NCBI GenBank assembly: GCA_007126035.1
Contig: SLCC01000197.1
Coordinates: 1-37,521, forward strand
Direction of reading: 5' to 3'
Source: Gemmatimonadota bacterium
Lineage (GTDB): Bacteria; Gemmatimonadota; Gemmatimonadetes; Longimicrobiales; RSA9
DNA: 37,521 nt
Shown here: in pieces, positions 8,462 to 37,441 of the stretch
Layout: the number at the start of each line of letters is the position of its first letter
How positions within the stretch are numbered: position 1 is the first letter of the stretch
The notes under the pieces: generated by a model
Told to the model about the DNA's origin: nothing
The model's input: the letters and a program-made list of their open reading frames with translations, nothing else
Databases searched by the model: none
Program-made: the position numbers and the translations under genes

Positions 8462-8706
8462 AGTTTCACCCGGGCCGGCGCCAGCAGAGGGGGTGGCCGG
8501 CGGCCGTGCCGCCGTCACCCGGAACGATCCACTATTGCCCGAGGGCCCGGTCACAGGCAAGGCCTGCGGCCTGGAGACGAGCCGCTTCTGGTTCTGGACA
8601 GGGAGGCAGTTTCGATCCTAATGTTGGAGGCAGGCCGGGTCTCGTGCGGCGCTGACAAGACTCGACTGAACCGTCCCCTCGATCCCCAGCATCAGGAGGA
8701 GCCGTC

Positions 8707-9213: not shown

Positions 9214-9234
9214 GCGGCTGCTAGATTGTAGACC

Positions 9235-12200: not shown

Positions 12201-12444
12201 CCTGGCCGCTGGCGAAGACGTCGTGGACACTCTCCTGGGAATCGCCCGGCAGGGCCGGTTCCTGGCCACCACGGAGCCCAACGACTGCGCGTTCTGCGAC
12301 TTCCACGCCCCCTGTCGCGTGACGGTCGGTGACTGGAACAACGCCTGCTCGCCCCGGGCGGTGTGGGCCAAGGCCAACGCCGAAGGGCTGGACGAGTTCC
12401 GCCCACTGGTCAGGCTGCGGGCGGAGTACGGAGCAGGATCATGA
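9235..12444 (+). CDS. addB: AddB-like subunit: inactive helicase fold plus iron-sulfur nuclease
   Basis: A 1069-residue partner of the downstream AddA. AddAB unwinds and resects double-strand breaks ahead of RecA loading. The N-terminal half has the spacing of an SF1 helicase but no intact Walker A, as in AddB, where this part scans for Chi-like sites. The C-terminal RecB-family PD-(D/E)XK nuclease has DYKTG with Asp927 and Lys929, preceded by the GRVDRLD strand. Four cysteines, Cys771 plus Cys1018, Cys1021 and Cys1027, reproduce the C...CxxCx5C iron-sulfur staple of Bacillus AddB. No clear ribosome site precedes the ATG. Its stop overlaps the addA start (ATGA), indicating translational coupling. 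Confidence 0.88.
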   Translation: MPPEALPSLVAELRRITEAHPYDRKLLLCASPAEGRELLRALALQGCAWVGWESWSLRQLAHQVVGLQLAAEGLGTADGFDVMAAVDEAIDAADSASETELFEGGVPGSYRDPIRRTVEALRLAGLGAEAMAAAAGRDAKLRLLATVLSRYEDTLIARNLLDGPGLMARAAAALESGPDDSGVSAGTDGLPAALLFLLPGLTLRGVEGRLLRSLLDRGARVLATDPVAGLQAPASLLWAASPETAGPLSVLHDPEPAVPERGPHAGCAGDGSPGPPVALFAAATPTDELKEVLRRVVAAGAPCDEVEIVATDPTTYGMALDGLARRLGIPVTYSEGLPLSRTRAGRAADAYFRWVSDGFSVDPIRQLLESGDLAASDTGPSAAALARRLRRLHIGWGHDRYLATLDRVLAAAEQEPRATGDDDERLEAARERERTELVALRGLLAPILAATPRPEHRRADWRDRTSPAALAEGLLALLERVPGGDEVENTARTVLVHRLERARATLTRDTGWTAATAVLRSRLETRISATAAAGRLAPWTSTGGHLHLSGIARGGLAARPHTFVVGLSAGAVGAGLVDPLLTDPDRVRLNGLNRNAATGPGAPVLLPGTADRIHEAKHALAAMLARLRGRITLSYAAWDMSEGRTIGPAPELLQSLRLLEGDRALTYEDLRKRLGRLACAVPDPAKTGAGLLDGADVWLTALAMPDGRLRDGSDTVRSAHPGLDRGLQAQEARTGACVTVYHGLVRPEPGLDPRAAGEVVSASRLESLGSCPLRYFYRYVLGIRPVRDPSYDPERWLDALERGSLLHDVYELTLEHQPPGVAYDDGAFLDHALAVLDEQVRRMLQRLPAPNTAVFRSERDALEADVRSFVAMVRDQRPNVLRTELAFGPDRYAEGEVQVEVGERPLRLRGRVDRLDALEAGGLRIVDYKTGQARAYHADFPFHGGRRLQHLLYSLAVERLRPGERVEAAEYHFPSVRGENQIAGYARAALAAGEDVVDTLLGIARQGRFLATTEPNDCAFCDFHAPCRVTVGDWNNACSPRAVWAKANAEGLDEFRPLVRLRAEYGAGS

Positions 12445-15400
12445 GCCAGCAGAGCTTCGACTTCGGCCATCCTGACACCGACTCGCCGCCATCGCCGGAA
12501 CACGCGCCGGGAGAGGGAGCGGTGGCGTCGCCGGCAGCTGACGTTAACGGCGAGAGGACGGCATCGACGGTCGACTGGACGCCGCCGGACCAGGCGCAAC
12601 GGTACCGGATCCTCTCCGAGCTGGACGCGAACCTGCTGGTCGAGGCCGGGGCCGGCTCGGGCAAGACTACCAGCATGGTCGGCCGGATGGTGGAGCTGGT
12701 CCGGGCGGGCCGCGACGTTGACCGGATAGCCGCGGTCACCTTCACCCGCAAGGCGGCCGCCGAGCTGCGCGAGCGGTTCCAGGTGGCACTGGAATCGGCG
12801 TACCGGACCGCTGCCGAAGGAGGTAACGACGTGGAGCGGGCCCGCTTCGGCACCGCCCTGGACGCCGTGGACCGATGCTTCCTGGGAACCATCCACTCCT
12901 TCTGCGCCCGACTGCTGCGGGAGCGGCCACTGGAGGCCGGGATCCCGCCCGACTTCGAGGAGATCTCGGGCCCGGACGAGGACCGGCTCCGTGTGGACAG
13001 CTGGACCCGATTCCTCGAGCGACTGGCGGAGAAGCAACCGTCGCGGCTGGGCCGCGCCCTGGCCAGCCACGCACTACGCCCCGCACAGCTGCAGGGAGCG
13101 TTCAGGGAGATCGCCGACAACCCGGATGTGAGCTTCCCCGCCCCCGTCGCGCCGCCGCTGGACCCGGTACAGGTGGCGGCGGTGAGGCGACGGCTGGACC
13201 TACTCCTCGGCGAGTCGAGAAGACTCCTCCCCGTGCAGGAGCCAACCAGGGGCTGGGACCCGCTCCAGAACAAGCTCAGGCGTCTCCTGTTCCGCCGCCG
13301 TGTGGTGGGCTGGGACCAGGAGCTGGAGTTCATGCAGGCCCTGGAGCAGGCGCTGCAGGGAAAGAACAGCGTCACGCAGAACAGGTGGGGTGAGGACGGC
13401 GCCACGAAGAAGGCGGCGAAGGCGCTGGCGGAGACATGGGACGACTTCTGCGCCGAAGAGGGCCGGGCCCGGTCTCTCCTGGAAACCTGGTGGGCGGTCC
13501 GTTACCGGGTCGCAATCCGCTTCGCACGTGCTGCGGCGGCTTCTTACGCCGTGGATCGGCTGCGACTGGGCAAGCTCACCTTCCAGGACCTCCTGGTCCG
13601 CGCCACCGCCCTGCTTCGCGACCACCCCGCCGCGCGGCGCGAGCTGGGCGAACGCTACCGCTGGCTGCTCGTCGACGAGTTCCAGGACACGGACCCCGTC
13701 CAGGCCGAGATGCTCCTGCTCCTGTCCTCCGACCCGGCCATGGACCCGGGCCGGGACCCGGACCCTTACGGGCGGGAACCGCTGTGGCAGCTCGTAGTGC
13801 CGAGGCCGGGCGCCCTCTTCGTGGTCGGGGACCCGAAGCAGAGCATCTACCGGTTCCGGCGGGCGGACGTCGTCGTCTACAACCGGGTCAAAGCCCGGTT
13901 CCGGGAATTCGGAGACATCCTGCACCTTGTTACCAATTTCCGATCGACACGCCCGATAGAGGTGCTGGTAAACCAGGTGTTCCAGTCCCGGTTCCCGGAG
14001 CGGGAGACGGAGCACCAGGCGGAGTACGCGCCGCTCCGCGTCCGTCCCGACCGCACTTCAGGGAGTGAGGGCATCTACTGCTACAGCTTCGAGCCGCTGG
14101 CCACCGGCGGACCGTTCTCCGGTCGCAGGATCGCCGAAGCCGAGTGCCACCTGCTGGCGTCGTGGGTGCGGCAGAGGATCGACCGGCATGAGCGCAAGCC
14201 GGGCGACTTCATGATCCTGGCATCCCGTAAGAGCGAGCTGGCCACCTATGCCCGTGCCCTGGAGGCCCAGGGTGTCCCCGTCCAGGTAACCGGCGCGGGA
14301 GTGGGCGTCGACGAAGAGTTGAGCGAGCTGATCCTCCTGCTCCGGGCCCTGGCGGACCCCGAGGACCCGATCCTGATCCTGGCGGTCCTGGAGGGCCTGT
14401 TCTTCGGCCTGTCGCACCAGGACCTCCACGACCACGCCCGCGCGGGGGGTCGGTTCACCCTGCTCATGGAGCCTCCGGCAGGCAGCCCCGCCAGCCATGC
14501 CCTCGATACATTGCGCAGGTTCTGGGAAGCGACCCGCCACCTGCCCGCCGATGTGGCCGTGGCCAAGATCGTGGAAGGTCTTGGCATCCTGCCCTGGGCC
14601 GCCGCCGGCGACCTCGGCGCCACGCGAGCGGGGGCCGTGGTCTACGCTCTGGACACTCTCCGGGCAGCAGCCCGGGACGGTTGCGCTTCCCTGCACGAGG
14701 CCATCGAGCTCCTGGAAGCGGCACTGGAGCAGGAGGTGGACGCACCCCTGATTCCCGGCGAGACGAACGCGGTGCGGGTGATGAACCTGCACAAGGCGAA
14801 GGGGCTGGAGGCGCCCGTGGTCGTGCTGGCGTACCCCGCGAGCCTGAACGAGCACGCGCTGCGTCGCCACGTGGCCCGGGACGCCGCGGGAGAGGCGGTG
14901 GGCTGGCTGTCGCTGGTCGACCCGACGCAGGCGGGTAACCGGATCATTGCCCAGCCCGCCGACTGGTCGGACCACGAAGCCGCCGAGGCCCCCTTCCAGG
15001 AGGCCGAAGAGGTCCGGCGGCTGTACGTGGCCGCTACCCGCGCCGCCGAAGAACTGGTGATCGCCCGTTGCGACAGGACCGCGGACGGCTCCTGCTGGTC
15101 CCCGCTCCACGAGGCGCTGGACCGACCGGGGATCGCCATCGAGATCGCCCTCACGGAGGCGCCGCCACCGGAGCGGGAGCGGCTCACCACCACGGTCGGC
15201 GAGATCGAGGCGCAGATCCAGGAGGCGGCGGATGCCAGGCGACGGCTGGGCCGGCCGTCCTATCGAGCATGGTCGGTCACCGCACGAGTCCACGGGCAGG
15301 GACCCGGCGCCGTGGAGCAAGACCCGGAGCTCGAGGTGGCGGAGCTGGGTGTGGACGTCGAACTCCTGTACCTGGCCGGGCCCGGCTTCCGCGCCCCCGC

Positions 15401-15902
15401 CGGGCCGTCTCCCGAGCCCAGGGGGACGGAGTGGGGTAGCGCCGTGCACCGGGCCATGGAAGCGGCTGCCCGGGGCGCCCAGGGCCAGGTCCTCCGGAGA
15501 ATGTGCCGGGCGGCGCTCCGGGAGTTCGAGCGCCCACTTGATGCCCAGACGGGAGAGCCCGTCGAGCTCGCGGAGCTGGTCGGACTGGTCGAAGCCGTAC
15601 GGACCCAGCCCGTATGGGACCGGGTCCGCGGCGCCCGTCGCGTCCTGGTCGAGGCGCCCTTCAGCCTGGCCCTATCGGCAGACCAGGCCCGGCGCGTGGG
15701 CGTGACCGAACCGGCGGAGGTGGAAGTGCTGGAAGGGACCATAGACCTGGCCCTCCAGGATCCCGACGGCCGCTGGACCGTGGTGGACTTCAAGACCGAT
15801 GCGCGCCAGGACCCGGAGCGGGAGCGGGCCTATCGGAGACAGCTGCTGCTGTACGCGCTGGGCGTGGTGGTGCCGGCTACGCGCCCTGCACCAGGCGGGT
15901 GA
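12441..15902 (+). CDS. addA: AddA-like helicase-nuclease (UvrD/RecB type)
   Basis: A 1153-residue SF1A helicase with a C-terminal RecB-family nuclease. Walker A (GAGSGKTT) is at about residues 70-77, followed by motif Ia VTFTRKAAAELRER, motif II LLVDEFQDTDPVQ, motif III VVGDPKQSIYRFR, motif IV NFRSTRP, motif V NLHKAKGLEAPVVVLA and motif VI VRRLYVAATRAAEEL. The nuclease carries GTIDL and VVDFKTD (Asp1116, Lys1118) and a QxxxY motif near residue 1136. All catalytic elements appear intact, so with AddB it should form a dual-nuclease AddAB complex. The ATG at 12441 overlaps the addB stop. Its last 26 bases overlap the convergent SbcC-like gene; only about 14 residues follow the final motif. Confidence 0.93.
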   Translation: MSQQSFDFGHPDTDSPPSPEHAPGEGAVASPAADVNGERTASTVDWTPPDQAQRYRILSELDANLLVEAGAGSGKTTSMVGRMVELVRAGRDVDRIAAVTFTRKAAAELRERFQVALESAYRTAAEGGNDVERARFGTALDAVDRCFLGTIHSFCARLLRERPLEAGIPPDFEEISGPDEDRLRVDSWTRFLERLAEKQPSRLGRALASHALRPAQLQGAFREIADNPDVSFPAPVAPPLDPVQVAAVRRRLDLLLGESRRLLPVQEPTRGWDPLQNKLRRLLFRRRVVGWDQELEFMQALEQALQGKNSVTQNRWGEDGATKKAAKALAETWDDFCAEEGRARSLLETWWAVRYRVAIRFARAAAASYAVDRLRLGKLTFQDLLVRATALLRDHPAARRELGERYRWLLVDEFQDTDPVQAEMLLLLSSDPAMDPGRDPDPYGREPLWQLVVPRPGALFVVGDPKQSIYRFRRADVVVYNRVKARFREFGDILHLVTNFRSTRPIEVLVNQVFQSRFPERETEHQAEYAPLRVRPDRTSGSEGIYCYSFEPLATGGPFSGRRIAEAECHLLASWVRQRIDRHERKPGDFMILASRKSELATYARALEAQGVPVQVTGAGVGVDEELSELILLLRALADPEDPILILAVLEGLFFGLSHQDLHDHARAGGRFTLLMEPPAGSPASHALDTLRRFWEATRHLPADVAVAKIVEGLGILPWAAAGDLGATRAGAVVYALDTLRAAARDGCASLHEAIELLEAALEQEVDAPLIPGETNAVRVMNLHKAKGLEAPVVVLAYPASLNEHALRRHVARDAAGEAVGWLSLVDPTQAGNRIIAQPADWSDHEAAEAPFQEAEEVRRLYVAATRAAEELVIARCDRTADGSCWSPLHEALDRPGIAIEIALTEAPPPERERLTTTVGEIEAQIQEAADARRRLGRPSYRAWSVTARVHGQGPGAVEQDPELEVAELGVDVELLYLAGPGFRAPAGPSPEPRGTEWGSAVHRAMEAAARGAQGQVLRRMCRAALREFERPLDAQTGEPVELAELVGLVEAVRTQPVWDRVRGARRVLVEAPFSLALSADQARRVGVTEPAEVEVLEGTIDLALQDPDGRWTVVDFKTDARQDPERERAYRRQLLLYALGVVVPATRPAPGG

Positions 15903-18900
15903 TCAGCAGGTCCACGTCCAACCCCGGGTCTGCACCGGTCTCCGCCAGGAGCCTGATCCGGATGTGTGCCTGCGTCAGCGGCTCCTCCTCACTCAGGTAG
16001 CCATGGGCCTGGAGGAAGGTCCGGAGCTCTTCGGTCTTGCCTGCCTGGAACCTTGGCACGCGGCGCTGGACAAGCGCGTCCATCAATGCCTCCGCTTGCC
16101 CTTCCAACTCGTGGCAGAGGGCGGCGACCTGGTCGATGAAATTGTCACTGACGGCGCCGGACTCGGCGAGCACAGACCGGTCCACGGGCCGGCCGCGGCC
16201 CTGGCGCCAGAGCTGGCGGAACCGGTCGCAGATGCGCGCGGCGAGGCGGGCCTGCTCCAGGGCGTCACGGGCCACGCCTGGCAGTACACAGTTCCCGGCC
16301 ATCTCGAGCAGGTGCTCCAGTTGGCCCCAACTGGTCACTCCCATGGCCAGCAGCTGATGGAGCGCGTCGACGTCGTCCACCAGGTACCAGAGGTGGAGCC
16401 CGCCCACGCCGTCGGCCCAGGGATCGAATGGCGGCACGTTCAGGGCGCGGCCGTAGGCGGGATGGTCGAGGGCGGCGGATTCCGGGAGTTGGTCTCCAGG
16501 GGTGGGGTCCCAATCGATATCGGCCAGGGCGCCGCCGGCGCCCGGGTGCGTTATTCTGCGGACGCACCAGTCGACGCGTTCAGCGTCCGGGTCCTGGTCC
16601 TGGCCCTCGAGCCGGGTCCGCCATTTGACCAACTCGTCCGCCTGTGCGGTGAAGTAGAAGATCTGGCGTCCGTCCCTGGCGACGGCTATGGCAGCGTCGA
16701 TTATGGCGGCGGCCCGATCGTCGTCGCAGTTGGCCAGGACCTCGTCCAGTAGGAGGGGCAGCGACGCGCCGGCCTCCTGGGTCTCCACGAAGGCCAGGCG
16801 TACCGCCAGCAGGAGCTGGAGCCGGGTCCCCGAGGACAGCTCTTCCAGGCCATGTCCGCGTTGGGTGGTGGTGTCGTAGGCCCGGAACGCGGCGTCATCG
16901 CCCTGCTGCATGTCGAGACGATAGCGACCGCGGGTGATGAGCCTGAACAGCTCACGAGCCCGGTGGAAGACGCGGGGGCGATTCCTGTCCCGGTCGTGTT
17001 CGGCGAGCCAACCGACCAGCGCCGCGCCGATCTCCGCTTCCACGTCCCGGTCTCGTCGCTCGGCCAGGTCGGCGGTGGCTTCGGTCACCGCCGCCAGCGC
17101 TTCCTCGACGTCGTGCTTCCGCCGTGCGACACTGATCCTCGCCTCGATCCCGGCGATCACCGACTCCAGCTGCCGGACGGACTCGGCCGCTTCACGCGCC
17201 CGCTCCACCGCCCGCTCCAGATCGGCGACCGTCACTCCATGCCGGTCTCTCTCCTGGCCGTCACGATGGCCAGCTTCTGTGATCGCGTCCGTGATCGCGT
17301 CTGTGACCGCGTCGAAGGTCGAGGCAGGCTCCCGCCCGGAAGTCGTCTGTGCTTCCACTGCTGCCGCGGCTGCGGCCTCCTGCCGTTCCGCTTGTTCCAG
17401 GTCGGTACGGGCGCGCTGGACCTCCTCGAGCTGGCCGGCCCAGTTGCGGAGGATCGGCTCCTCAGCGGGCGTCAGCTCCAGGGCCCGGAAGAGAGAGATT
17501 CTCCGCTGTTCCAGTGACTGGATCTCGTCTCGCGCGCGATGTCCCTGGAGGCGCGCTGCCTGGAGCTCGCCGGTGGCGGACTGGTGTCGGTCGCGTCGCT
17601 CCCTGAGATCACGGAGCGCCCCGGCTACCGTCTCCCCGTCGGTGGGTTGGTGCCCGTATGGGGCCAGGCTACCGGCGGCGGCGCTGATGGCGACGGCCTT
17701 TCGGTCCATCAGGTCCTGGAGGAGCGCCTCGGCGGCAGCCTCCTCCAGCCGGGCCTCGTTCCAGAGCCGGAGTAGAGTGGCCATGGCGTGGAGGGGCAGC
17801 GGCTCGGGCGCCGGCTCCAGGCCCAGCGAGCTTGCCAGTTCGGCGCGCTCCGTTTCCAGCTCCGCGTCCTCGATCGCCACCTGCCGCAGCTCGTCCTGTA
17901 GCCGGATCGCCTCCCTCTTCTGCTCGGCCGCCAAGGTCTCACCGGCGACGAGGCGCTCGAGCGTGTCCAGGAGGAACTCTACGCCCTCGGTGGTCCATGC
18001 ATCTGGCTCGTGACCCAGGCGCCGGGCCTCCCGCTGGAGGTCGCCACGGGGATCGATCTCCTGTGCGGGCCGGGACAGGAACAGGGCAGCCGCCAGCAGG
18101 ACCAGGATCACGCCGGCCCCCGCCGACCATACCGGCCCGACCAGGGCGCCGGCCACGATGAGTGCCAGGCCCGCCAGCCCCAGACCGGCAACAACTCCGT
18201 TTACGAGGCGCCACAGGCGACGCACCGCTCCCCGGTCACCACCTCCCGCCCGCAACCACCGGCGAAGGAGCGGGATCACCTCGGCTGCACGGCTCACCGT
18301 TGCGGCGTCATCAGTCGTGAGGGCACGGATCCGCGACTCCAGCGCCTGGCGCCGCTCCCGCAGCGAGCCCGCCACCTGGGCGAACCGGTCCAGCCGCTGG
18401 ACGTCTGCGACGGACGGATCCGGCATGGGCTGGGTGGTCGGGCCAACGCCCAGGGCTGCACCAGCCTGTTCACGGCGACCACGGGCCCTTCCCAACGAAT
18501 TCCGGGCACGGGCAATCTCGTCGTCCAGCTGCCGGATCGCTTCGAGCCTCTCCTCCAGCTCGCCCAGAAGCGATATCGGGACCCCGCTGTCGCCCAGGCC
18601 CACCTCCTCGAGGATGGCAGCGGCACGGGCCACATCAGCATCAGCCTCGGCCACCAGGCGGTCCAGCCGCTCCCTGTCAGCGGACCACTCGTCGAGGCGC
18701 TCCAACTCGTTTCCTCGCAACCGCCAGACTCCGGGCGGGAAAGCGGCCACGGCCCGCTCCGCGTCGGCCAGTCGCTCCCTGGCCCGGGCCAGGTCCAGGG
18801 CCGAATTCAGCAATTGGAGCCTGCCCGCCTCCACCTCCAGCGTGGCCAGGTCGTGCCGGAGTCGCTCGAGCCGGACCTGGTCCTCCCTGAGCTCCGCCTC

Positions 18901-27370: not shown

Positions 27371-28138
27371 CTACTTCCGTTCGAGGAAACGACGCAACCC
27401 TTCCCTGGTGTCAGGCGTCATCCGTGCCAGCACGTTCACTTCGGCGCCCCGTGCAATGGCTTCCTCGAAGGAAAGGCCGTCCATGCCGTAGAGGAGCCGT
27501 TTGCTCAGGGACACGGCGCTGGGTGAATGCTCGACCAGCTCCTTGGTGTACGCCCTGAGCCCTGCCTCCCACTCGGCGGCGGGTACTACCCTGTTCACGA
27601 GACCCAGCCCGGCGGCCTCTTCCGCCCCGATCCGGTCTCCCCGGACCAGCAGCTCGAAAGCGACCTTCTCGCCGACCAGGCGCCGGAGCAGCGCCATCAC
27701 CATGGCGGGCACGAAGCCCAGGTGGATCTCCGGGTATCCGAAGACCGCGTCATCCCTGGCTATGACCAGGTCGCACGCCGTGGCCAGACCCGCGCCGCCA
27801 GCCAGGGCGTGGCCGTGAACGGCGGCGACGACGGGCTTGGGATGCCGCCGTATGAGGACCAGGAGCGCACCCAGCGCCTGGGCGTCCGCCAGGTTCTCCG
27901 TGACGTCACTGGTCTCGGCGATCCGCTTCAGGGAGTCCAGGTCCGCACCGGCACAGAAATCTGGGCCATCACCGCGGATCAGGACCAGGTGCACGCTCCG
28001 GTCGGCCGCCGCGTCCCCAAGGGCACCGGCCAGTGTCTCGATCAACTCGCTGTTCAGGGCGTTGCGGCGCTCCGGGCGATCCAGGATCAGCGCCCGGACG
28101 CCGCCCGCCGTCTCGAGCCGCAAGGGCGACCTGGTCAT
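27371..28138 (-). CDS. Enoyl-CoA hydratase/isomerase family protein
   Basis: A 255-residue crotonase-fold enzyme. The CoA-binding and oxyanion segments DFCAGADLDSL (about residues 61-71) and HGHALAGGAGLATACDLVIA (about 108-127) are present, with FGYPEIHLGFVPAM carrying the usual Glu. It likely hydrates an enoyl-CoA intermediate of branched-chain, terpenoid or related acyl-CoA catabolism; the substrate is not determined. The ATG at 28136-28138 overlaps the previous stop (ATGA) and has GGAGGAG upstream. Gene context with AtuA suggests a role like AtuE or LiuC, by inference. Confidence 0.88.
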   Translation of the reverse strand: MTRSPLRLETAGGVRALILDRPERRNALNSELIETLAGALGDAAADRSVHLVLIRGDGPDFCAGADLDSLKRIAETSDVTENLADAQALGALLVLIRRHPKPVVAAVHGHALAGGAGLATACDLVIARDDAVFGYPEIHLGFVPAMVMALLRRLVGEKVAFELLVRGDRIGAEEAAGLGLVNRVVPAAEWEAGLRAYTKELVEHSPSAVSLSKRLLYGMDGLSFEEAIARGAEVNVLARMTPDTREGLRRFLERK

Positions 28139-28467
28139 GGCAGCAACTCCTCCGGCACGTCCACCTCCATGCGTAACAGTGCTGTCGAGAACGTCTTCCC
28201 CTGGGCATCGGTCATCAGCGACACCGTCCCGCCTCCCCCCAGGGCGTTGTGCAGCAGAAAGTTCAGGGCCCCGAGATTGGGCAGCTCGAACCGCTTCACC
28301 TCGCCCTTGACCATGTCACCGAAGTGCTCCTTCACCCGGCGCTCGGTGAGCTGTTCGACCAGCAGGTCGTAATGCTCCGCCCGGTAGGAGATGACGCCCA
28401 CGTTCACCGTGTCGCCCTTGTCGCCCGAGCGGGCGTGGGCGAGATCCTTGAGCTGTACTCTACGCAC
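28135..28467 (-). CDS. AtuA-like ferredoxin-fold protein
   Basis: A 110-residue protein corresponding to the C-terminal domain found fused to AtuA in some bacteria: LKDLAHARSGDKGDTVNVGV near the start, then VKRFELPNLGALNFLLHNALGGGG and the final VDVPEEL. Its molecular role is unknown, but it always travels with AtuA. I chose the GTG at 28465-28467 because GGAGG lies eight bases before it and the conserved part then starts at once; a GTG at 28509 would add 14 residues. It lies between AtuA and the enoyl-CoA hydratase, overlapping the latter. Confidence 0.82.
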   Translation of the reverse strand: MRRVQLKDLAHARSGDKGDTVNVGVISYRAEHYDLLVEQLTERRVKEHFGDMVKGEVKRFELPNLGALNFLLHNALGGGGTVSLMTDAQGKTFSTALLRMEVDVPEELLP

Positions 28468-28512
28468 CGTTCGGTCCTCCAGTTGGGTCCGACAAGGCCG
28501 ACCCTCCACGCA

Positions 28513-29901
28513 TCACGCCTCCGTGACCTCGACATGGAGATCCGGCTCGATCTGGCGGCGATCTATGAGGGCAGGCCAGAAGGCCATGATCTCCTGGACC
28601 CTGGGCCGCCCCCCGGCAAAGCCGGTGACGGACGGCGGGCCGGAGAGGATGAGTGGCGCGATCTCCCGGCTGAACTGCTCGACCGAGGCTCGGTCCTCGC
28701 TGCGCACGGCTATCCGGAGCTGGACCTCGGGCAAGTCGTCTGGTGGGTCCCCTGCCAGATGGCCGTGGGTGGAGCTCCAGCCAACGAGCTCGGTGCGGAC
28801 CTCTTCGAACCGAAGGCCCAACCGATGGAGGCGCTCCCTGAGGACCTGGTCTGCCGCCCGGGCCTTCCGCACGGCATCGGGCCAGGCGTAGACCAGCGTG
28901 CCCACCGCCTTCCAGCCGGCGGAATAGGCGATGGAGACCTTGAGCATGCCGGTGCGCGGTCTGCCTCTCACGCCGCTGACCCGGACCCGGTCGGGCCCGT
29001 CGTCGTCGAGCCGGATAGTGGTGAAGTCGGCGACCACGTCAGGGGTTATGTATTCGGCAGGGTCGCCCATCTCGTAAAGCAGCTGCTCCTTGATTATGGC
29101 CGGGTCGATCCTGCCGCCGGTGCCCTGGTGTTTGGTGACGACGAAGCTGCCATCGGGATAGGCCTCGACGATGGGGTATCCGATCCCCGCCAGGTCCGGG
29201 ATTGTGTCCCAGTCCACCAGGCAGTTGCCGCCACTGGCCTGGGCCCCGCACTCGTTGATGTGGCCGGCCACCACGCCTGCCGCCAGGAAGTCCCACTGGT
29301 CGGGTGCCCAGCCGAACTCGAAGATCATGGGCGCGTAGGTGAGGGCCGTGTCCGTGGAGCGACCCGTCACCACCACGGTAGCCCCACGCTCCAGCGCCTG
29401 GACGATGGGGCGTGCACCGATGTAGACGTTGGCGCTCGCCACCCGATCGATCACGTCGCTCAGGGGCCTGCCGGTGTCCATGTGCCTCAGCTCGTGGCCC
29501 TGCTCGACCAGTGACTCCAGGCGTCCCAGCAGGTCATCCCCGAAGACGATACCAACCCGGGGCCGTTCGTCGGACTTGCCGACGCGGGATCGGGCCGCCT
29601 CGAGCAGAGCGTCCCGACAACCCTCCAGGTTGACGCCGCCGGCGTTGCTTATGACCCGGACCCGGTTCCGGAGCAGGTCGGGGAACAACTCGGCCATGAG
29701 GGGCACGAAGTCCCGGGCGTATCCCTGTGTCGGGTCCCGGTCCCTCTGCTTCTGGAGGATGGACATGGTGACCTCGGCCAGGTAGTCCATCATGAGATAG
29801 TCAAGCGGGCCTCGCCTGACCTGCTCGATGGGGGCGTCCGGTCGATCACCCCAGAAGCCCTGGCCGCTGCCGATCCGGATCGGTCCGCGCTGTACTGTCA
29901 T
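28513..29901 (-). CDS. AtuA family protein (DUF1446, acyclic terpene utilization)
   Basis: A 462-residue protein of the AtuA/DUF1446 family: [16 protein letters not shown] at the N-terminus, [56 protein letters not shown] and [12 protein letters not shown] are all hallmark segments. In Pseudomonas the family is needed for citronellol/geraniol breakdown, but relatives occur widely next to acyl-CoA enzymes and the reaction is not established. The ATG at 29899-29901 has GGGAG upstream. It heads a minus-strand operon with the detached ferredoxin-fold protein and an enoyl-CoA hydratase. A good promoter lies about 75 bases upstream. Confidence 0.9.
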
Positions 29902-30144: not shown

Positions 30145-30645
30145 ATGCACGTTCGACAGTACGCCCAGAGGGTCGTGCTAACCGCGCTCATACTTGCGGC
30201 GGCGTGGTACGTGCTGTCTGGCCGGTTCGACCTGCTGCATTTCGGGACGGGCGTGGTCGTTGCCCTGGCCATCGCCGCCAACCTGCCGGGCATCGATGAC
30301 CGGACACACTTCCGCCCGCTCCGGTTCCTCCTGTACTGCCCGTGGCTGGCGGTGCAGGTAGTGAAGTCGAACCTGCGGGTGGCCCGTGGCGTTCTGAGTG
30401 CCCGCCTGGACATTGCGCCCACGTTCATCAGCCGACGTCCCGACGTGATCGGAGACCGTGCCCTGACGTTGCTGGGCGCCAGCACTACGCTGACGCCGGG
30501 CACCCTGACCGTGGATGTGTCACAGCACGAGGTCTTCATTCATGCCCTGGACACCAAGTCGGCCCGGGACATAGAGGAAGGCGCCATCGCCAGCCAGGTA
30601 GCGCGGGTCTTCGTGGCGCCGGAGCTCGAGGAGCCGCGGTCGTGA
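30145..30645 (+). CDS. mrpE: Mrp/Mnh antiporter subunit E (MbhA-like)
   Basis: A 166-residue MnhE-family membrane protein. Two or three helices lie in the first 80 residues (VVLTALILAAAWYVLSG and HFGTGVVVALAIAANL), then LLYCPWLAVQVVKSNLRVARGVL. The soluble tail has the family motif LLGASTTLTPGTLTVDV. It is a structural subunit of a multisubunit cation/proton antiporter in the inner membrane. First gene of the operon; TTAAGG precedes the ATG. The stop overlaps the next start (GTGA). Confidence 0.92.
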   Translation: MHVRQYAQRVVLTALILAAAWYVLSGRFDLLHFGTGVVVALAIAANLPGIDDRTHFRPLRFLLYCPWLAVQVVKSNLRVARGVLSARLDIAPTFISRRPDVIGDRALTLLGASTTLTPGTLTVDVSQHEVFIHALDTKSARDIEEGAIASQVARVFVAPELEEPRS

Positions 30646-30914
30646 CTATGCTGTTCGCGGTCGTGACATCCACCATAGTAGTCGTCATCGCCTTCTTCAT
30701 GGCCCGGCTGATCATCGGTCCCACCATATTCGACCGGGTGGTGGCGCTGAACGGTATCGGGACGCTGATCCCGGTGCTGATGGTGATGACGGGCATGTTC
30801 TACGCCCGGCTGGACATGTTCGTGGACCTGGCCCTGGCCATTTACCTGCTCAACCTGTTCACCACCCTCCTGATCGCCCGGTACGTCCGGCAGAAAGCGG
30901 AGACGGAGGAATGA
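30642..30914 (+). CDS. mrpF: Mrp/Mnh antiporter subunit F (MbhB-like)
   Basis: A 90-residue MrpF/PhaF protein with three helices. The family segment GPTIFDRVVALNGIGT follows the first helix, and YARLDMFVDLALAIYLLNLFTT the second. The GTG at 30642 is preferred to the ATG at 30648: it overlaps the mrpE stop and has GAGGAG eight bases upstream. Confidence 0.92.
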   Translation: MTMLFAVVTSTIVVVIAFFMARLIIGPTIFDRVVALNGIGTLIPVLMVMTGMFYARLDMFVDLALAIYLLNLFTTLLIARYVRQKAETEE

Positions 30915-31270
30915 TGCTGCAGGTGATCGCCGGTCTCTTCATGGCCGTGGGCACCTTCTTCCTGGTGGTGGCGGCCATCGGATTCGTCCGGCTGCCGGAC
31001 GTGTTCTGCCGGCTCCATGTGAACGGGGTGATCGACACGCTGGGCGCGCCCCTGATCCTGCTGGGTGCAGCCATCTTCATCGGCGCCAGCCTGGTATCGC
31101 TCAAGCTGCTCCTGGCCATCGGATTCCTGCTGGTCAGCAGCCCGCTGGTGGCCCATCTCCTGGCCAGGGCCGCCCTTGAGGCGGGGCACCAGCCAGGCGT
31201 GATCGAGGAGCGCTCCGAGCACCGGTGGGCCCAGGTCCGGACGCGACGCGGGGCCGGGAGGCAGGAATGA
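30911..31270 (+). CDS. mrpG: Mrp/Mnh antiporter subunit G (MbhC-like)
   Basis: A 119-residue MnhG-family protein with three helices. It has FVRLPDVFCRLHVNG and the second element DTLGAPLILLGAAIF as in other MrpG subunits. The hydrophilic tail (from about residue 88) is longer than usual. The ATG at 30911 overlaps the mrpF stop; the stop overlaps the next start (ATGA). Confidence 0.92.
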   Translation: MMLQVIAGLFMAVGTFFLVVAAIGFVRLPDVFCRLHVNGVIDTLGAPLILLGAAIFIGASLVSLKLLLAIGFLLVSSPLVAHLLARAALEAGHQPGVIEERSEHRWAQVRTRRGAGRQE

Positions 31271-31809
31271 TCACATTCCTGATCCACGCCGTCACGCTGC
31301 TCACGGCCGTGACTGCCCTGGCCATCATCCGGGTCCGGGACCTCTTCGCCCTGATCGCGCTCCTGGCCGTGTACAGCGGGCTGCTGGCCACGCTCTTCGT
31401 GCTCATGGGCGCAGTGGACGTGGGTCTCACCGAGGCGGTGGTGGGTCTCAGCGTTTCCGTGGTCTTCCTCATGGCCCTCATGTGGTGGATCGACCCCTAC
31501 GAGGTGAGCAACCATCCGCCTCTGCGGCAGGCGCTGCCGGCGATCCCCGCCGTGGGGCTGGGCGCGCTGCTGGTCTACGGCGTCATGGCCCTGCCACCCT
31601 TCGGGGACCCCACCGCGCCGCCCATGCAGCGGGTGTCCCCGTACTACATCGAGAGCAGCTACGCCGACATGGCGACGCCCAATGTGGTGGCGGCTGTTCT
31701 TGCAGACTATCGAAGCCTGGACACGCTGGTGGAGGCTGCGGTCGTGTTCGCCGCCGCGCTGGCCTGTCTGCTGATCCTGTTGTATCGCGATGATCCGACC
31801 GTTCGATAG
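31267..31809 (+). CDS. Fused MbhD-MbhE-like subunit (MrpA C-terminal equivalent)
   Basis: A 180-residue membrane protein made of two parts. Residues 1-73 are MbhD/DUF4040-like (IIRVRDLFALIALLAVYSGL, MGAVDVGLTEAVVG). Residues about 80-180 are MbhE-like (YYIESSYADMATPNVVAAVL, DYRSLDTLVEAAVV). In classical Mrp these parts form the C-terminus of the giant MrpA subunit; in archaeal Mbh they are the separate proteins MbhD and MbhE. Here they are fused to each other but free of any NuoL-like domain. The ATG at 31267 overlaps the mrpG stop; the 3' end overlaps the MnhB-type gene by 20 bases. Confidence 0.88.
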   Translation: MITFLIHAVTLLTAVTALAIIRVRDLFALIALLAVYSGLLATLFVLMGAVDVGLTEAVVGLSVSVVFLMALMWWIDPYEVSNHPPLRQALPAIPAVGLGALLVYGVMALPPFGDPTAPPMQRVSPYYIESSYADMATPNVVAAVLADYRSLDTLVEAAVVFAAALACLLILLYRDDPTVR

Positions 31810-32233
31810 TCTCATGCTCCGCACGCTGCTCGGCCCGCTGGTGGCCGCAATGCAGCTGTTCGCCTTCTACATCCTTGTCCACGGGCACTACAGCCCCGGC
31901 GGCGGGTTCCAGGCGGGCATCCTCCTGGGCGCATCCATGATCCTGCCCCGCCTGACCCTGGGCCGAGCGCAGGGACCGCTCGCGCTGACACCTGGCGGCG
32001 CCGGCGTCCTCACGGCCGTAGGCGTCCTGATCTTCGCCGGTCTGGGAACGGTTGCCGTATTGGTCGGACAGCCCATGCTGGACTACTCCGTCCTGCCCCT
32101 GGACCCGGACCCCGCCGTGCGCCGGTCCCTGGCCATCCTGCTCATCGAGGTGGGCGTCACCCTGGCCGTGGCGGGCGCCATGCTGTCGATCTTCTACGCC
32201 CTGTCCGGGAAGCTGGGAGGCGAGGAACGATGA
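31790..32233 (+). CDS. mrpB: Mrp/Mnh antiporter subunit B (MbhF-like)
   Basis: A 147-residue MnhB-family protein with four helices. It carries the hallmark HGHYSPGGGFQAGILLGAS near residue 31 and the final EVGVTLAVAGAMLSIFYAL. It follows the MbhDE fusion with a 20-base overlap and runs into the next gene with ATGA. It is a membrane subunit of the antiporter, with the Gly-rich loop typical of the family. Confidence 0.93.
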   Translation: MIRPFDSLMLRTLLGPLVAAMQLFAFYILVHGHYSPGGGFQAGILLGASMILPRLTLGRAQGPLALTPGGAGVLTAVGVLIFAGLGTVAVLVGQPMLDYSVLPLDPDPAVRRSLAILLIEVGVTLAVAGAMLSIFYALSGKLGGEER

Positions 32234-32580
32234 TCGAGGACATCGTCGCCCGCGGCCCGTACCTCCTGTTCGCCCTCCTGGCGGTGGCTGGGCTGTACCT
32301 GATGATGTCCCACCGGAACCTGATGAAGGCGGTGGCCGGTCTCTATTTGTTCCAGACCGCCGCCATACTGCTGTTCATCGCCCTGAGCTACCGGGAAGGG
32401 GCCTCGGTTCCCATCGCCGCGGACGGCCTCGAGCTGCACAACCCCCTGCCCCACGCCATGATGCTCACCGCTATCGTGGTGGGCGTGGCCATCCTGGGCG
32501 TGGCCATCGCCATACTCCGGCGCATCCAGGCCGAGACCGGCTCCATTGAAGAGGGGCCCACCGGCGACGAGGGCGGCTGA
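32230..32580 (+). CDS. mrpC: Mrp/Mnh antiporter subunit C (NuoK-like, MbhG-like)
   Basis: A 116-residue three-helix NuoK/MnhC homologue (GLYLMMSHRNLMKAVAGLYL, ELHNPLPHAMMLTAIVVGVA). The motif NPLPHAMMLTAIVV is shared with MrpC and MbhG. The ATG at 32230 overlaps the mrpB stop and the TGATG junction leads directly into mrpD. It likely couples the small-subunit part to the large antiporter-like subunits. Confidence 0.93.
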   Translation: MIEDIVARGPYLLFALLAVAGLYLMMSHRNLMKAVAGLYLFQTAAILLFIALSYREGASVPIAADGLELHNPLPHAMMLTAIVVGVAILGVAIAILRRIQAETGSIEEGPTGDEGG

Positions 32581-34046
32581 TGCAGTCCAATCTGCCGATC
32601 CTGCTGTTCCTGGTGCCGTTCCTCGCCTCCATGGTGGGTGCCATCGTGGGGTGGTACGTCCGGCACGCCGCCCGCCGGATCGCTCTCGTGGCCATGGCGG
32701 CGACGGCGGGCATCAGCATCCTGGCCCTGTTCAGGGTCCTGGAAATCGGCAGCCTCCACACCCACATGGCCGGCTGGCCGCCGCCCATCGGCATCGAGGT
32801 GCTCCTGGACCCGCTGAGCGCCTTCATCGCCGCGACCATAGCGGTGGTGGGGCTCATCGTGGTGGCCGGCGCCGTCGAGCACTCGGGCGCGGAGCTACCG
32901 CGGCGGAAGGTGGTCTACTACCCGTCGATCCTGCTCCTGATGTCGGGTCTCATGGGGATCACCATCACCGGAGACCTCTTCAACCTCTTCGTCCAGATCG
33001 AGGTGGCGAGCCTGGCGGCATACGGGCTGGTGGCCGCCGGCGGCCGGGGGGCGCCGCGGGCAGCGTTGAACTACCTGATCATCGGGAGCCTGGGCGCGTC
33101 CCTGTACCTGATGGGCGTCGGCTTCATCTACGCGGCTACCGGGACCTTGAACATGGCCCAGGTGGCCACCCTGCTAGCCGAGGCGGACCAGCGTCTGGTC
33201 CTGGTGGGCGGCCTGTTGATGGTGGGCGGGCTGGCCACGAAGATGGGGCTCTTCCCCTTCCACGTCTGGATGCCCGCAGCCTACTCCCGGGCGCCGACGG
33301 CTGCCGCCGCTTTCATGGCGCCGCTGGTGACGAAGGTGTCGGCGTACGCGCTGATACGGGTCCTGTTCTGGGTGTTTGCCGGTGGTGCGCTGTTGGTGGA
33401 CGACCTGCTCCTGGAGGTGGTGGCGTGGGCTGGTGCGGCGGCGGTGGTGCTGGGTAGCGTCCTGGCGTTCATGCAGACGGACCTGCGCCGGCTGCTGGCG
33501 TACTCGAGCGTTGGGCAGATGGGCGTGGTGGCGCTGGGCGCGGGGCTGGCCAACGCCACGGCCATGACGGGCGCGATCATGCACATCGCGAACGACGCCT
33601 TGATGAAGGGTGCGCTGTTCCTGGCGGCCGGCATGGCTTTGATCCGGTTCGGCGTGCGCAACGTTGACGAGCTGGCCCGGCTCCGGGGGCAGGCGCCGTG
33701 GACGATGGCGGTTGTGGTGGTGGCGGGGCTGTCTCTTATCGGCATCCCGCCCCTGTCGGGCTTCTTCGGCAAGTGGTACGTACTGAGCGGCGCGATCGAG
33801 GAAGCCCGTTGGGCTTTCGTGGTGGCTCTTGCGGTAGGCAGCCTCGCGGCGGTTGGTTACGTGTTCCGGATACTGGAGCCGCTCTTCTTCCGCCCCCCGG
33901 ACACTGGGCCCCTGGCACGGGAAGGCAACTGGGCGCTGGTGGTGGCGTGCGTGCTGCTGGCGACGCTGATGATCGTGCTTGGCGTCGGCAACGAGCGGCT
34001 GGTGACGGTCTTCATCATGCCGGCGCTGCCGGGGTTGGTGCCGTGA
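32580..34046 (+). CDS. mrpD: Mrp/Mnh antiporter subunit D (NuoL/M/N family, MbhH-like)
   Basis: A 488-residue proton-translocating antiporter-like subunit with about 14 helices. The ion-path residues are in place: Glu141 (NLFVQIEVASLAAYGL), Lys221 (GLATKMGLFPFHVWMP) and Lys252 (TKVSAYALIR), then QTDLRRLLAYSSVGQMG and HIANDALMKGALFL. It is the first of three large paralogs in this operon and the one most like standard MrpD. The start overlaps the mrpC stop (TGATG); the stop overlaps the next start (GTGA). Confidence 0.93.
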   Translation: MQSNLPILLFLVPFLASMVGAIVGWYVRHAARRIALVAMAATAGISILALFRVLEIGSLHTHMAGWPPPIGIEVLLDPLSAFIAATIAVVGLIVVAGAVEHSGAELPRRKVVYYPSILLLMSGLMGITITGDLFNLFVQIEVASLAAYGLVAAGGRGAPRAALNYLIIGSLGASLYLMGVGFIYAATGTLNMAQVATLLAEADQRLVLVGGLLMVGGLATKMGLFPFHVWMPAAYSRAPTAAAAFMAPLVTKVSAYALIRVLFWVFAGGALLVDDLLLEVVAWAGAAAVVLGSVLAFMQTDLRRLLAYSSVGQMGVVALGAGLANATAMTGAIMHIANDALMKGALFLAAGMALIRFGVRNVDELARLRGQAPWTMAVVVVAGLSLIGIPPLSGFFGKWYVLSGAIEEARWAFVVALAVGSLAAVGYVFRILEPLFFRPPDTGPLAREGNWALVVACVLLATLMIVLGVGNERLVTVFIMPALPGLVP

Positions 34047-35551
34047 CGGGCGGCCTCCCGGCCATCCTGGTCGCGGTTGCGGTGGCGACGCCGTTTTTGG
34101 CCGGGATCCTGATCCTGGTCACCGGGACCCGTGGCACTGAGGTATGGGGCCACATCGCTGCGGCGATCACCGCCGCGGCCGCGCTCCTGCTGGCGCCCAC
34201 GGTGATGGCCGGCGAGACGGTGGAGCTGCTGGTGGTGCCCCTTGTCCCGGGCCTGGACCTGCTGCTCCGGGTGGACGGTCTCGGCCTGGTCTTCGGGCTC
34301 CTGGCGTCGCTGCTCTGGATCGTGACCGGTGTGTACTCGGGGGGCTATGCCGCTGCCACGGCCCTGGCCAACCGGCGACGCTACTTCGCCGCCTTCGCGG
34401 CGTCCATCGGTGCCGCCATGGGGGTGGCGTTCGCGGGCAACCTGCTGACGTTCTTCCTGTTCTATGAGGCCCTGACTCTGGCCACCTACCCGCTGGTGGT
34501 CCACACGGAGAGCGACGAAGCGTTCAACGCCGGCCGGCGCTACCTGCTGTTCTCCCTCGGTGGCGGGCTGGCGCTGTTGACGGCAATGATCTGGGCCTGG
34601 CAGCTCACCGGCACCCTTGATTTCGTACCGGGCGGGTTCCTGGACCAGGTCGCCGGCACGACTCTGGTCGTGCTCTTCGTGCTATTCGTTTCCGGCGTTG
34701 CGGTCAAGTCGGCGGTCATGCCGCTGCACGCCTGGCTGCCGGCCGCCATGGTGGCGCCCACGCCGGTGAGCGCCCTCCTCCATGCCGTGGCCGTGGTGAA
34801 GGCGGGCGTGTTCGCCATGATGCGTGTACTGGGCTTCGTATTCGGGCCCGTCAGCCTGGCGGAGTTCGCCGGGCCCGAGGTGCTGGCGGCACTGGCGGCG
34901 ATCACCATCGTCATCGGCTCGCTCATCGCCGTGCGGCAGGACAACCTGAAGCGACGGCTGGCGTATTCGACGGTGGTGCACCTGTCCTACATCGTGCTGG
35001 GCGCGGCGCTGGTGGCCCCGTTCGGTACGGTGGGGTCGACGCTCCACATGGTGAACCACGGGCTGGCGAAGATCACACTCTTCTTCTGCGCGGGCGCCAT
35101 CTACGCCACCACGAAGCGGCAGAACGTGAGCGAGCTGACTGGACTGGGCCATCGGATGCCCTGGACGTTCACCGCCTTCACCATCGGATCGCTGGGTCTC
35201 ATCGGGGTACCGGGGATGTCGGGTTTCATCAGCAAGTTCTTCCTGGCCCGTGGCGCCATACAGGCGGGAGACATGGTGGCCCTCACGGTCATGTTGGGCG
35301 CATCGCTGCTCACTGCTACCTACCTGCTCCCCATAGTGCGGGTGGCATTCTTCCCTGGCACCAAAGCGCTGGGCGGACGTGGGGGTAGGCGTCTCCGGGC
35401 GCGGCGTCGCGAGGCCAGGCCGGCGCTGCTGGTGCCGCTGCTGATCACGGCGCTGCTGGTGGTGGTGTTCGGGCTCGTCCCGCCGGCGTTCGGTGTTCAG
35501 TACGAGCTTGCGGCGGACATCGCGGTCCGGATCTTCGGAGGCGGACAATGA
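34043..35551 (+). CDS. Second MrpD-like antiporter subunit
   Basis: A 502-residue NuoL/M/N-family paralog. Ion-path residues are Glu142 (LLTFFLFYEALTLATYPL), Lys222 (VKSAVMPLHAWLPAAM) and Lys253 (VVKAGVFAMMRVL), followed by RQDNLKRRLAYSTVVHLSY and HGLAKITLFFCAGAI. The GTG at 34043 overlaps the mrpD stop. Classical mrp operons have two large subunits (A and D); this is the second of three here. An Arg-rich cytoplasmic loop (GGRGGRRLRARRREARP) precedes the last helix. Confidence 0.9.
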   Translation: MTGGLPAILVAVAVATPFLAGILILVTGTRGTEVWGHIAAAITAAAALLLAPTVMAGETVELLVVPLVPGLDLLLRVDGLGLVFGLLASLLWIVTGVYSGGYAAATALANRRRYFAAFAASIGAAMGVAFAGNLLTFFLFYEALTLATYPLVVHTESDEAFNAGRRYLLFSLGGGLALLTAMIWAWQLTGTLDFVPGGFLDQVAGTTLVVLFVLFVSGVAVKSAVMPLHAWLPAAMVAPTPVSALLHAVAVVKAGVFAMMRVLGFVFGPVSLAEFAGPEVLAALAAITIVIGSLIAVRQDNLKRRLAYSTVVHLSYIVLGAALVAPFGTVGSTLHMVNHGLAKITLFFCAGAIYATTKRQNVSELTGLGHRMPWTFTAFTIGSLGLIGVPGMSGFISKFFLARGAIQAGDMVALTVMLGASLLTATYLLPIVRVAFFPGTKALGGRGGRRLRARRREARPALLVPLLITALLVVVFGLVPPAFGVQYELAADIAVRIFGGGQ

Positions 35552-35772
35552 GGGAGCGGCTCAGGGACCGCGTCACATTGACGCTGGTGGCGCTGCTGGC
35601 CGGGCTCGTGCTGGTGGAGGCGCTGTTCTTCCCCTACGACCACCCGGTCTTCCCGTGGCACTTCGTCCCCGGCTATGCCGCGGCCATAGGCTTCGTCTTC
35701 GCTCTGCTGATGGTCCTGGTGGCCAAGACGCTGGGTACACGGTTCCTCCAGAGGCCTGACCGGGATGAATAG
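35548..35772 (+). CDS. Small two-helix protein of the antiporter operon
   Basis: A 74-residue protein with two helices (about 10-28 and 42-62) separated by FFPYDHPVFPWHFVPGYAAAIGF. The His/Phe/Pro pattern before the second helix and the following AKTLG resemble a small membrane protein encoded in other multi-MrpD operons. I know no named domain. The ATG at 35548 overlaps the previous stop and its end overlaps the third large subunit by 8 bases. Tight coupling argues that it is a structural or assembly subunit of the same complex. Confidence 0.8.
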   Translation: MRERLRDRVTLTLVALLAGLVLVEALFFPYDHPVFPWHFVPGYAAAIGFVFALLMVLVAKTLGTRFLQRPDRDE

Positions 35773-37441
35773 CCTGCTGCTGCACCCGGTCCTCCCGTTC
35801 GCCGTCGCGGCTCTGCTGGTGCCGTGGGTGGGCGTCATGGGCAGGCGACTCCTGTCTCTGGCAGCGCCAGTCCTGGCCATCATCAGCCTGGCCCTGCTCC
35901 CGGACGGCGCAACCTACACGCTGGAAGCCATCGGCCACGACTGGGTTCTCCTGCGCGCCGATGGCCTGGCCGTCATCTTCGCCACCGCGTTCATCCTGTT
36001 CGCGCTCATGGCCGGCGCCTTCGCGTGGCAGGATACGGACAGGGGCCCCAAAGCCATGGGCCTGGTGCTGGCAGGGGCCGGGACCGGCGTGGTCCTGGCG
36101 GGAGACCTGCTGACCCTGTTCTTCTTCTGGGAATGGCTCACGGTAGCGTCCCTGTTCCTGATCTGGTTCGGCAACACGGAACGCTCCTGGGGCGCCGGGT
36201 TCCGCTACCTGATCTTCCATCTGGCCGGCGCCATGGTCATGCTTTCGGGCATACTCATGATGGTGGCCGAAGGGATCACCGCCTTCGAGCCCCTGCCGAC
36301 CGGCACCGCCGCCTCCTGGCTGGTCCTGGCCGGCATGGCGACGAACGCGGCGATCCCACCGCTCCACGCCTGGCTCTCGGACTCCTACCCGGAGGCCAGC
36401 ATCTACGGAACCGTCTACCTGGCGGCGTTCACCACCAAGAGCGCTGTCTACGCCTTGAGCCGGGGCTTCCCCGGCTACGAGCTGCTCATGTGGCTGGGCG
36501 TGATCATGGCCCTGTTCGGCGTCTTCTACGCCGTCATGGAGAACAACCTGAGGCGGCTCCTCAGCTATCATATCATCAGCCAGGTCGGCTACATGGTGAC
36601 GGGGATCGGCATCGGGACCGAGCTGTCTCTGAACGGCTCCTCCGCCCACGCCTTCGCCAATGTCTTCCACAAGGGCCTGCTCATGATGACGGCCAGCGCC
36701 GTCATCTACGCCACGGGCCGGAACAAGCTCTCGGACCTTGGCCAACTGGCCAAGCCGCTCAAGTGGACGCTACTCCTCATGATGGTGGGCGCGCTGTCGA
36801 TCTCCGGCGCTCCCTTCTTCGTCGGCTTCGTGAGCAAGTCCATGATCGTGTCCGCTGCCGCCTACACGGAGCGGGCGCCGGTGGAGCTGCTCCTGCTCAT
36901 CGTCTCCATGGGCACATTCCTGTCGGTGGCGCTCAAGATGGTCTGGTTCACCTTCATCGGTGTGGACCGGGGCGCCCGGGTCTACAGGCCGGTACATCCG
37001 TCCATGTACGTCGGCATGGGCCTGGCCGCCTTCGCCTGCATGATCACTGGCGTCGTGCCCGGAATGGCCCTCTACCCGGTCCTCCCCTTCGACGTGGTGT
37101 ACAACCCGTTCACTGCCCACCATTTCGTCGAGGTCCTCCAGCTCATGCTGGGCACGGCCCTGGGGTTCTGGCTCACCCGCATATACCTGGTGGGCAAGGC
37201 GAAGGAGACGCTGGATACGGATTACCTCTACCGGCGGCCCCTTACCTGGCTCATCTTCGGCGCCGGCGACCTGCTCAGCGCCACCGGGCAGAAGGTGAAG
37301 GCTGCCAACGGCCGTGCCATCGCCGCCGGTTGGGCCGCATTCCAGGAGTACCGCGTCAAGAGCGAGGGAAGGACCCTGGCCTTCCAGGCCACGGTGGTGG
37401 TGGTGGCACTTGCGGTTCTGGCGTTCCTCGTAGTCGGCTAG
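35765..37441 (+). CDS. Third MrpD-like antiporter subunit, lacking the first Lys
   Basis: A 558-residue NuoL/M/N-family membrane protein. Glu123 (LLTLFFFWEWLTVASL) and Lys225 (TTKSAVYALSRGF) are kept, as are the segment MENNLRRLLSYHIISQVGYM and His302-Lys303 (FHKGLL). The lysine expected before PPLHAWL is Asn194 (GMATNAAIPPLHAW). A long C-terminal part with a lateral amphipathic region (about 455-535) and a last helix (540-557) recalls the extended tails of NuoL-like subunits. The loss of one Lys may mean a non-pumping or differently coupled subunit, or may be normal for its subfamily. The operon appears to end here: only 80 bases without a gene follow before the window ends. Confidence 0.9.
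   Translation: MNSLLLHPVLPFAVAALLVPWVGVMGRRLLSLAAPVLAIISLALLPDGATYTLEAIGHDWVLLRADGLAVIFATAFILFALMAGAFAWQDTDRGPKAMGLVLAGAGTGVVLAGDLLTLFFFWEWLTVASLFLIWFGNTERSWGAGFRYLIFHLAGAMVMLSGILMMVAEGITAFEPLPTGTAASWLVLAGMATNAAIPPLHAWLSDSYPEASIYGTVYLAAFTTKSAVYALSRGFPGYELLMWLGVIMALFGVFYAVMENNLRRLLSYHIISQVGYMVTGIGIGTELSLNGSSAHAFANVFHKGLLMMTASAVIYATGRNKLSDLGQLAKPLKWTLLLMMVGALSISGAPFFVGFVSKSMIVSAAAYTERAPVELLLLIVSMGTFLSVALKMVWFTFIGVDRGARVYRPVHPSMYVGMGLAAFACMITGVVPGMALYPVLPFDVVYNPFTAHHFVEVLQLMLGTALGFWLTRIYLVGKAKETLDTDYLYRRPLTWLIFGAGDLLSATGQKVKAANGRAIAAGWAAFQEYRVKSEGRTLAFQATVVVVALAVLAFLVVG

Follow-up and report, generated by a model that had tools for sequence, protein, structure and literature searches.

A ten-gene Mrp operon in Mbh order with three large antiporter-like subunits in a Gemmatimonadota genome

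Gene content and order of the operon

The window analysed here is a whole contig (SLCC01000197.1, 37,521 bp) of a Gemmatimonadota bacterium, and from 30145 to 37441 its + strand carries ten overlapping reading frames in the order E-F-G-MbhDE-B-C-D1-D2-small-D3, which probably encode a complete group 3 Mrp (CPA3) cation/H+ antiporter driven by the proton motive force. With two start codons corrected (most likely ATG 31267 for MbhDE and GTG 34043 for D2, the latter within a GTGA overlap with the D1 stop), every one of the nine gene junctions is an overlap, of 1 to 20 bases. A first-pass annotation, made from the sequence alone, had proposed a ten-gene Mrp operon, and this is borne out by the Pfam scan, in which nine of the ten frames exceed the cut-off in the expected families, MbhD and MbhE both in one frame and Proton_antipo_M in three. 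The NCBIfam assignments of the operon proteins agree with those of Pfam, and the small frame, of 74 amino acids, has no Pfam match at 0.001. The Rfam search returned no match and the promoter scan no site.

All genes lying on the + strand, the operon opens with MrpE (equivalent to MbhA; 30145..30645; MNHE, 1.6e-28), MrpF (MbhB; 30642..30914; MrpF_PhaF, 4.4e-8) and MrpG (MbhC; 30911..31270; PhaG_MnhG_YufB, 6.1e-23, with NCBIfam TIGR01300 over its cut-off). The following protein, of about 180 amino acids (31267..31809), is a fusion of MbhD (1.4e-10) and MbhE (1.3e-8) that corresponds to the C-terminal part of MrpA, aligning with 633-796 of 7qru_A and, weakly (E 0.37), with 6cfw_D. MrpB (MbhF; 31790..32233; MnhB, 1.5e-23) and the NuoK-like MrpC (MbhG; 32230..32580; Oxidored_q2, 2.4e-16) precede the large subunits D1 (32580..34046), D2 (34043..35551) and D3 (35765..37441), and a small two-helix membrane protein (35548..35772) is encoded between the second and the third. 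The absence of MrpA, with a free MbhDE fusion instead, was correctly recognised in the first pass as to the fused gene; D2 and D3 probably replace the N-terminal pump domain. The description of two further large subunits and a small protein likewise stands as to content, save that the small gene comes before the third large subunit and not last.

The order is that of MbhA to MbhH and not mrpABCDEFG, as had been stated, and it is already published, both for the stand-alone mrpEFGBB'CD of P. furiosus (PMC8415708; this and the other papers are cited here from excerpts) and in a three-D version (PMC13274419). The P. furiosus system shares the first seven genes with the window, including an MbhD-MbhE-type protein (its MrpB is described as homologous to an MbhD-MbhE fusion), and likewise has neither MrpA nor a hydrogenase, but it possesses a single D and is without D2, the small protein and D3; its deletion is reported to render cells more sensitive to acidification. 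The stand-alone Mrp of the soda-lake isolate Verruconatronum alginivorum has the same order with three D subunits, as annotation only, and is written MrpABCD1D2D3EFG or MrpEFGBCD1D2D3 between table and text of the same source (PMC13274419). Comparable arrangements are given as MrpEFGBBCDD (PMC4287430), as MrpEFGBBBCD with MrpDD (PMC6305446) and as a group 3 Mrp whose mrpD is followed by two NuoM/NuoL-like genes (PMC7784846), and in Gemmatimonadota an Mrp set BCDEFG has been linked to saline habitats (PMC9426454).

The conservation of the operon was evaluated in 100 loci, consisting of 20 regions of up to 20 kb, hand-chosen from relatives of the same class in a set where D3 was found at E <= 1e-60 in 111 of 394 genomes (own genome counted), together with 80 named loci that ranked best among 582 confirmed stretches. 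Content assigns 52 of the loci to the Mrp type and 36 to the complex I type, and leaves 12, mostly short, unassigned. The exact order E-F-G-DE-B-C-D1-D2-D3 is present in 38 of the 52 Mrp-type loci, from many phyla, among the best-match loci examined, and is therefore conserved far beyond chance. In the remainder, B has moved behind E (five loci), the contig end cuts an otherwise fitting order (seven) or the order deviates (two: L092 and L147); the MbhDE part is encoded by a single gene or by two, depending on the locus. Downstream of D3 no conserved gene was seen in the 50 Mrp-type loci inspected, three of which have no further frame. In L072 (genome G341; 4141-17763), which is among the 38, the three-D group 3 Mrp has a classic MrpA-type Mrp as its neighbour, and an ArgR-like gene was recognised by eye after D3.

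The large subunits and the small two-helix protein

The phylogeny of MrpD-type subunits suggested in the first pass separates the three large proteins. In a quick tree of 89 rows (D1 19, D2 30, D3 30 among them), D1, D2 and D3 are each recovered as a single clade with a Shimodaira-Hasegawa-like approximate likelihood ratio test (SH-aLRT) value of 100, and the D2 and D3 clades mix members from Mrp and complex I loci; two classic-Mrp rows sit on long branches, and the tree is used for these three clades. D1 is the true MrpD (MbhH), with MrpD 7qru_D as its best PDB match (195 bits), D2 is a second antiporter-like subunit closest to MbhH 6cfw_H (137 bits), and the nearest PDB sequence to D3 is MbsH' (6u8y_X, 90 bits). 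D3 reaches 552.8 bits with NCBIfam NF009310 (cut-off 564). Its AlphaFold2 model, with a mean predicted local distance difference test score (pLDDT) of 87, is aligned by VIA-align most closely with E. coli NuoL (9q8i_L; Z 43.7, root-mean-square deviation 2.6, 483 aligned), MrpD 7qru_D lying within 1 of NuoL at Z 42.8. Beyond residue 470 the modelled tail of D3 contains a helix pair resembling the lateral helix and last transmembrane (TM) helix of NuoL.

The residues expected of a proton pump are distributed unequally among the three proteins. All six residues tested are retained in the window's D1 and D2, including the full Glu(TM5)/Lys(TM7) pair, which is called strictly conserved in PMC9568556. 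In the tree set, the pair Glu137/Lys219 of D1 is kept as Glu in 19/19 and as Lys in 19/19 rows, and the TM7 position is also Lys in 30/30 D2 and 10/10 reference rows. In D3, Asn194 is aligned on MrpD Lys219 (alignment to 7qru_D), and among relatives this position is Asn in 34/34 rows of alignment A3, 12 Asn and 9 Lys in the 21 rows of alignment A1, and 27 Asn and 3 Lys in the 30 rows of the tree set, where the TM5 Glu and the TM12 Lys are present in 30/30 D3 rows.

The small protein belongs to a family of frames of about 70-100 amino acids, with two hydrophobic helices, located between D2 and D3. Most members end in a (R/K)xEDYYD-like C-terminus; the window copy ends differently. A profile built from 29 rows, with the window row excluded, was searched against 20,455 frames, drawn from the window, the 100 loci and three further loci as controls (L008, L174, L012), and matched 103 of them, 99 directly before a D3; the window copy was recovered at 2.2e-13 and the three control loci gave no match. 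The small gene stands directly before D3 in 97 of 101 D3 loci, of the Mrp and green complex I types alike, and the four exceptions (L151, L154, L121, L073) comprise two with the small gene about 280 bp earlier, one cut and one without it. In L128 and L168 the pair of small gene and D3 is present twice, in tandem. AlphaFold2 predicts helices at residues 2-27 and 43-67 (pLDDT 88, predicted template modelling score 0.60). No Pfam or NCBIfam family was found among 36 members scanned (scattered matches of 0.004 or weaker), and the PDB gave nothing either, by sequence at E <= 1 or by fold at 0.001 (best Foldseek E 9.1). A tblastn search of plasmids with the small protein gave no match although D3 is found on 99 plasmid records, which indicates that a single-sequence search is too weak for this protein. 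The family is thus unnamed in the libraries searched, and it may be mentioned in the literature on green complex I.

The trio D2-small-D3 occurs in the same order in the green complex I (nuo2) of rhizobia (PMC9040806, PMC7415380; S. meliloti locus L175), in which the small protein (QND30148.1) is annotated 'hypothetical protein' and D3 is 46.8% identical to the window D3 over residues 6-491. In that full complex I the trio takes the place of NuoL, with NuoK on one side and NuoM-NuoN on the other, whereas in the window it follows MrpD. This corresponds to the description of two MrpD-like subunits in place of NuoL in PMC9040806, in which a relative of green complex I is also said to have a second MrpD-like subunit whose C-terminal amphipathic helix carries an insert.

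Genomic setting and the search for a redox partner

The first pass had also considered an ion-pumping module paired with a redox partner encoded elsewhere, and had advised a search for orphan hydrogenase-like or NuoB/C/D/I-like genes. Because the contig ends 80 bp beyond D3, the absence of a hydrogenase downstream cannot be read from the window alone; it is established by the relatives, in which NuoB/C/D/H-like and NiFe (nickel-iron) hydrogenase-like genes were found in 0/52 Mrp-type loci within the stretches available, a weak NuoI-like ferredoxin match in L137 being the sole redox-type match. The genome itself (98.05% complete, 4.24% contaminated, 218 contigs) was searched for the 49-kDa subunit, NuoB, NuoH, DabA and MbhD families. 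The 49-kDa/NuoD (PF00346) and NuoH (PF00146) families have one copy each, both in an ordinary nuo operon, by which an orphan hydrogenase arm was ruled out as a candidate. PF00361 has six copies (three in nuo on contig C102 and three in the present operon), MbhD (PF13244) one, and NuoB-like PF01058 two, in the nuo operon on C102 and in a NiFe hydrogenase cluster on C41. From these searches it follows that the operon is the only Mrp found in its genome and that no orphan redox partner is present, so that the suggested module is not supported for this genome. Contig C41 (3.6 kb; L012 1-3581) carries a hydrogenase fragment, HoxU-Y-H with a maturation protease by eye, which looks like a soluble NAD-linked type.

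In two of the 52 Mrp-type loci the cassette is nested within a nuo operon. In the Bacteroidota metagenome-assembled genome (MAG) Yes70-14 (L138 1-13224), the whole cassette lies between nuoM, which ends at 4276, and nuoN, which starts at 11806; it shares its strand with nuoJ-K-L-M, and MrpE starts at 4277. In a Balneolaceae MAG (L112 201-13184) it is reversed and lies between nuoJ-K and nuoL-M. Since the insertion points differ, the nesting is a hint of a functional tie to complex I.

A misbinned contig was considered and rejected: the AddA-like gene of the window is nearest to a same-family genome (G008, 60%), as is AtuA (G007, 82%), so that the contig looks genuine. D3 was found at 1e-60 in 0/11 other family genomes, the operon is absent beside AtuA in four same-family genomes (stretches of 11.7, 11.7, 2.9 and 0.9 kb), and the nearest D3, 63% identical, is in another family of the same order. 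Owing to its absence from the 11 family genomes and from beside AtuA, the operon has been either patchily kept or acquired. Upstream, AtuA, a small gene and an enoyl-CoA hydratase occupy 27371-29901 on the - strand, AtuA and its neighbour being kept in same-family genomes without the Mrp operon. At 9235-15902 two frames overlap, one for a PD-(D/E)XK protein and the other for a UvrD helicase that also has a PD-(D/E)XK domain; we take them to be an AddAB-like pair.

Proposed function and its alternatives

Group 3 Mrps are described as lacking mrpA and possessing mrpD alone, sometimes in several copies (PMC8415708). The window has MrpB to MrpG homologues in one operon, no mrpA, and pump genes of the mrpD type only, PF00361 being confined in the genome to the three nuo genes and these three; D1 carries the Glu137/Lys219 pair. 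The MrpA of groups 1 and 2, a NuoL-like domain fused to MbhDE, is not encoded, MbhDE being free. The group 1 structures 6z16 and 7qru have homologous small subunits and MrpD, and their MrpA C-terminal part is equivalent to MbhDE, but they contain one MrpA fusion, one MrpD and an MrpF with Asp35, where the window MrpF has Asn37. The NiFe subunits of a membrane-bound hydrogenase are missing, as judged on the 52 related Mrp-type loci, and the trio shared with green complex I is not accompanied here by NuoK, NuoM, NuoN and redox subunits.

We propose that the products would form one complex with a cation half consisting of E, F, G, B and the MbhDE protein, connected by C to a pump half D1-D2-D3. 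D1 and D2, with their full Glu(TM5)/Lys(TM7)/Lys(TM12) set, would conduct protons inward, down the proton motive force, and a charge relay would expel a cation, most probably Na+, along a path past MbhDE Glu56. D3 may cap the far end with its NuoL-like tail (TM15, amphipathic helix, TM16), and the small two-helix protein would probably seat D3 against D2. The secondary antiporter with an extended membrane arm considered in the first pass is thereby supported, by the family identities, the order in 38/52 loci, the D clades, the absence of partner genes, Glu56, the D1 and D2 residues and the published precedents. Glu56 is Glu in 43/43 relatives and is aligned, weakly (6cfw_D, E 0.37), with MbhD Glu69, the homologue of E706 according to PMC7419157. 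An alignment to MrpA had placed Gly60 at Glu687, as if the key glutamate were lost from MbhDE; given the MbhD alignment this was dropped, and no loss is claimed.

Several observations weigh against this proposal. D3 is without the TM7 lysine, and its C-terminal tail is modelled with low confidence (pLDDT 49-72 in the blocks after residue 470). MrpF Asp35, described in PMC7419157 as an invariable residue of the Na+ path that is important for activity, is aligned (6z16_F; also 6cfw_B and 6u8y_B) with Asn37 of the window, and Asp is present in only 1 of 44 relatives (L092), the other 43 having N, G, S or A, for which reason Na+ as the ion is not certain; the Asp is found in the classic MrpF of L072, in MbhB and in MbsB. 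The Mrp of P. furiosus was inferred to run Na+ in and H+ out (PMC8415708), the cassette is nested in nuo in the two loci described above, and no measured transport by a three-D Mrp was found in the openly licensed PMC literature.

Some of these points would suit the same complex operating differently, using an inward Na+ gradient to export H+, or carrying another cation (K+, Ca2+). The P. furiosus direction, inferred for a system of the same core order, and the missing MrpF aspartate favour this, and Ca2+ has been reported to be moved by a group 1 Mrp (PMC5703873); on the other hand, most Mrps in the descriptions drawn on are Na+(Li+/K+)/H+ exchangers driven by the proton motive force, and D1 and D2 keep their pump residues, so that we regard this alternative as rather unlikely. 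An ion-pumping arm docking onto complex I or another redox partner would be consistent with the MbhA-H order, with 36 of the 100 loci having the trio within a complex I locus and with the two nested cassettes, but seems improbable given the lack of adjoining redox genes in the Mrp-type loci, beyond the one NuoI-like match, and a genome in which the one ordinary nuo operon lies on another contig, no redox genes are spare and the hydrogenase looks soluble. DabB is also a Proton_antipo_M protein, the sole point counted for a DabAB-like device for bicarbonate/CO2 uptake, which is highly improbable: the partner DabA (PF10070) was not found in this genome, in a search whose control was positive in 2/14 genomes, and the full set of small Mrp subunits is present.

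The proton-motive-force-driven group 3 Mrp that we prefer is an ordinary system, widespread and of an already named type, and the D2-small-D3 trio is the part worth pursuing. It can be tentatively hypothesised that in the complex I superfamily the trio serves as a portable end module, common to Mrp antiporters and green complex I, with a subunit of its own of about 70-100 amino acids. In this module D3, given the loss of its TM7 lysine, may be no ordinary pump: it could serve as an anchor or a gate, or pump by a different design. In the Mrps that bear the module without the MrpF aspartate, the cation route may differ. Complex I research is still concerned with how the antiporter-like subunits at the far end pump and whether each needs the TM5-Glu/TM7-Lys pair, a question for which D3, with the TM7 lysine absent across phyla and a two-helix escort nearly always present, is a natural test. 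An overlooked subunit in green complex I would matter too, given the up-regulation of that complex reported in symbiosis (PMC7415380).

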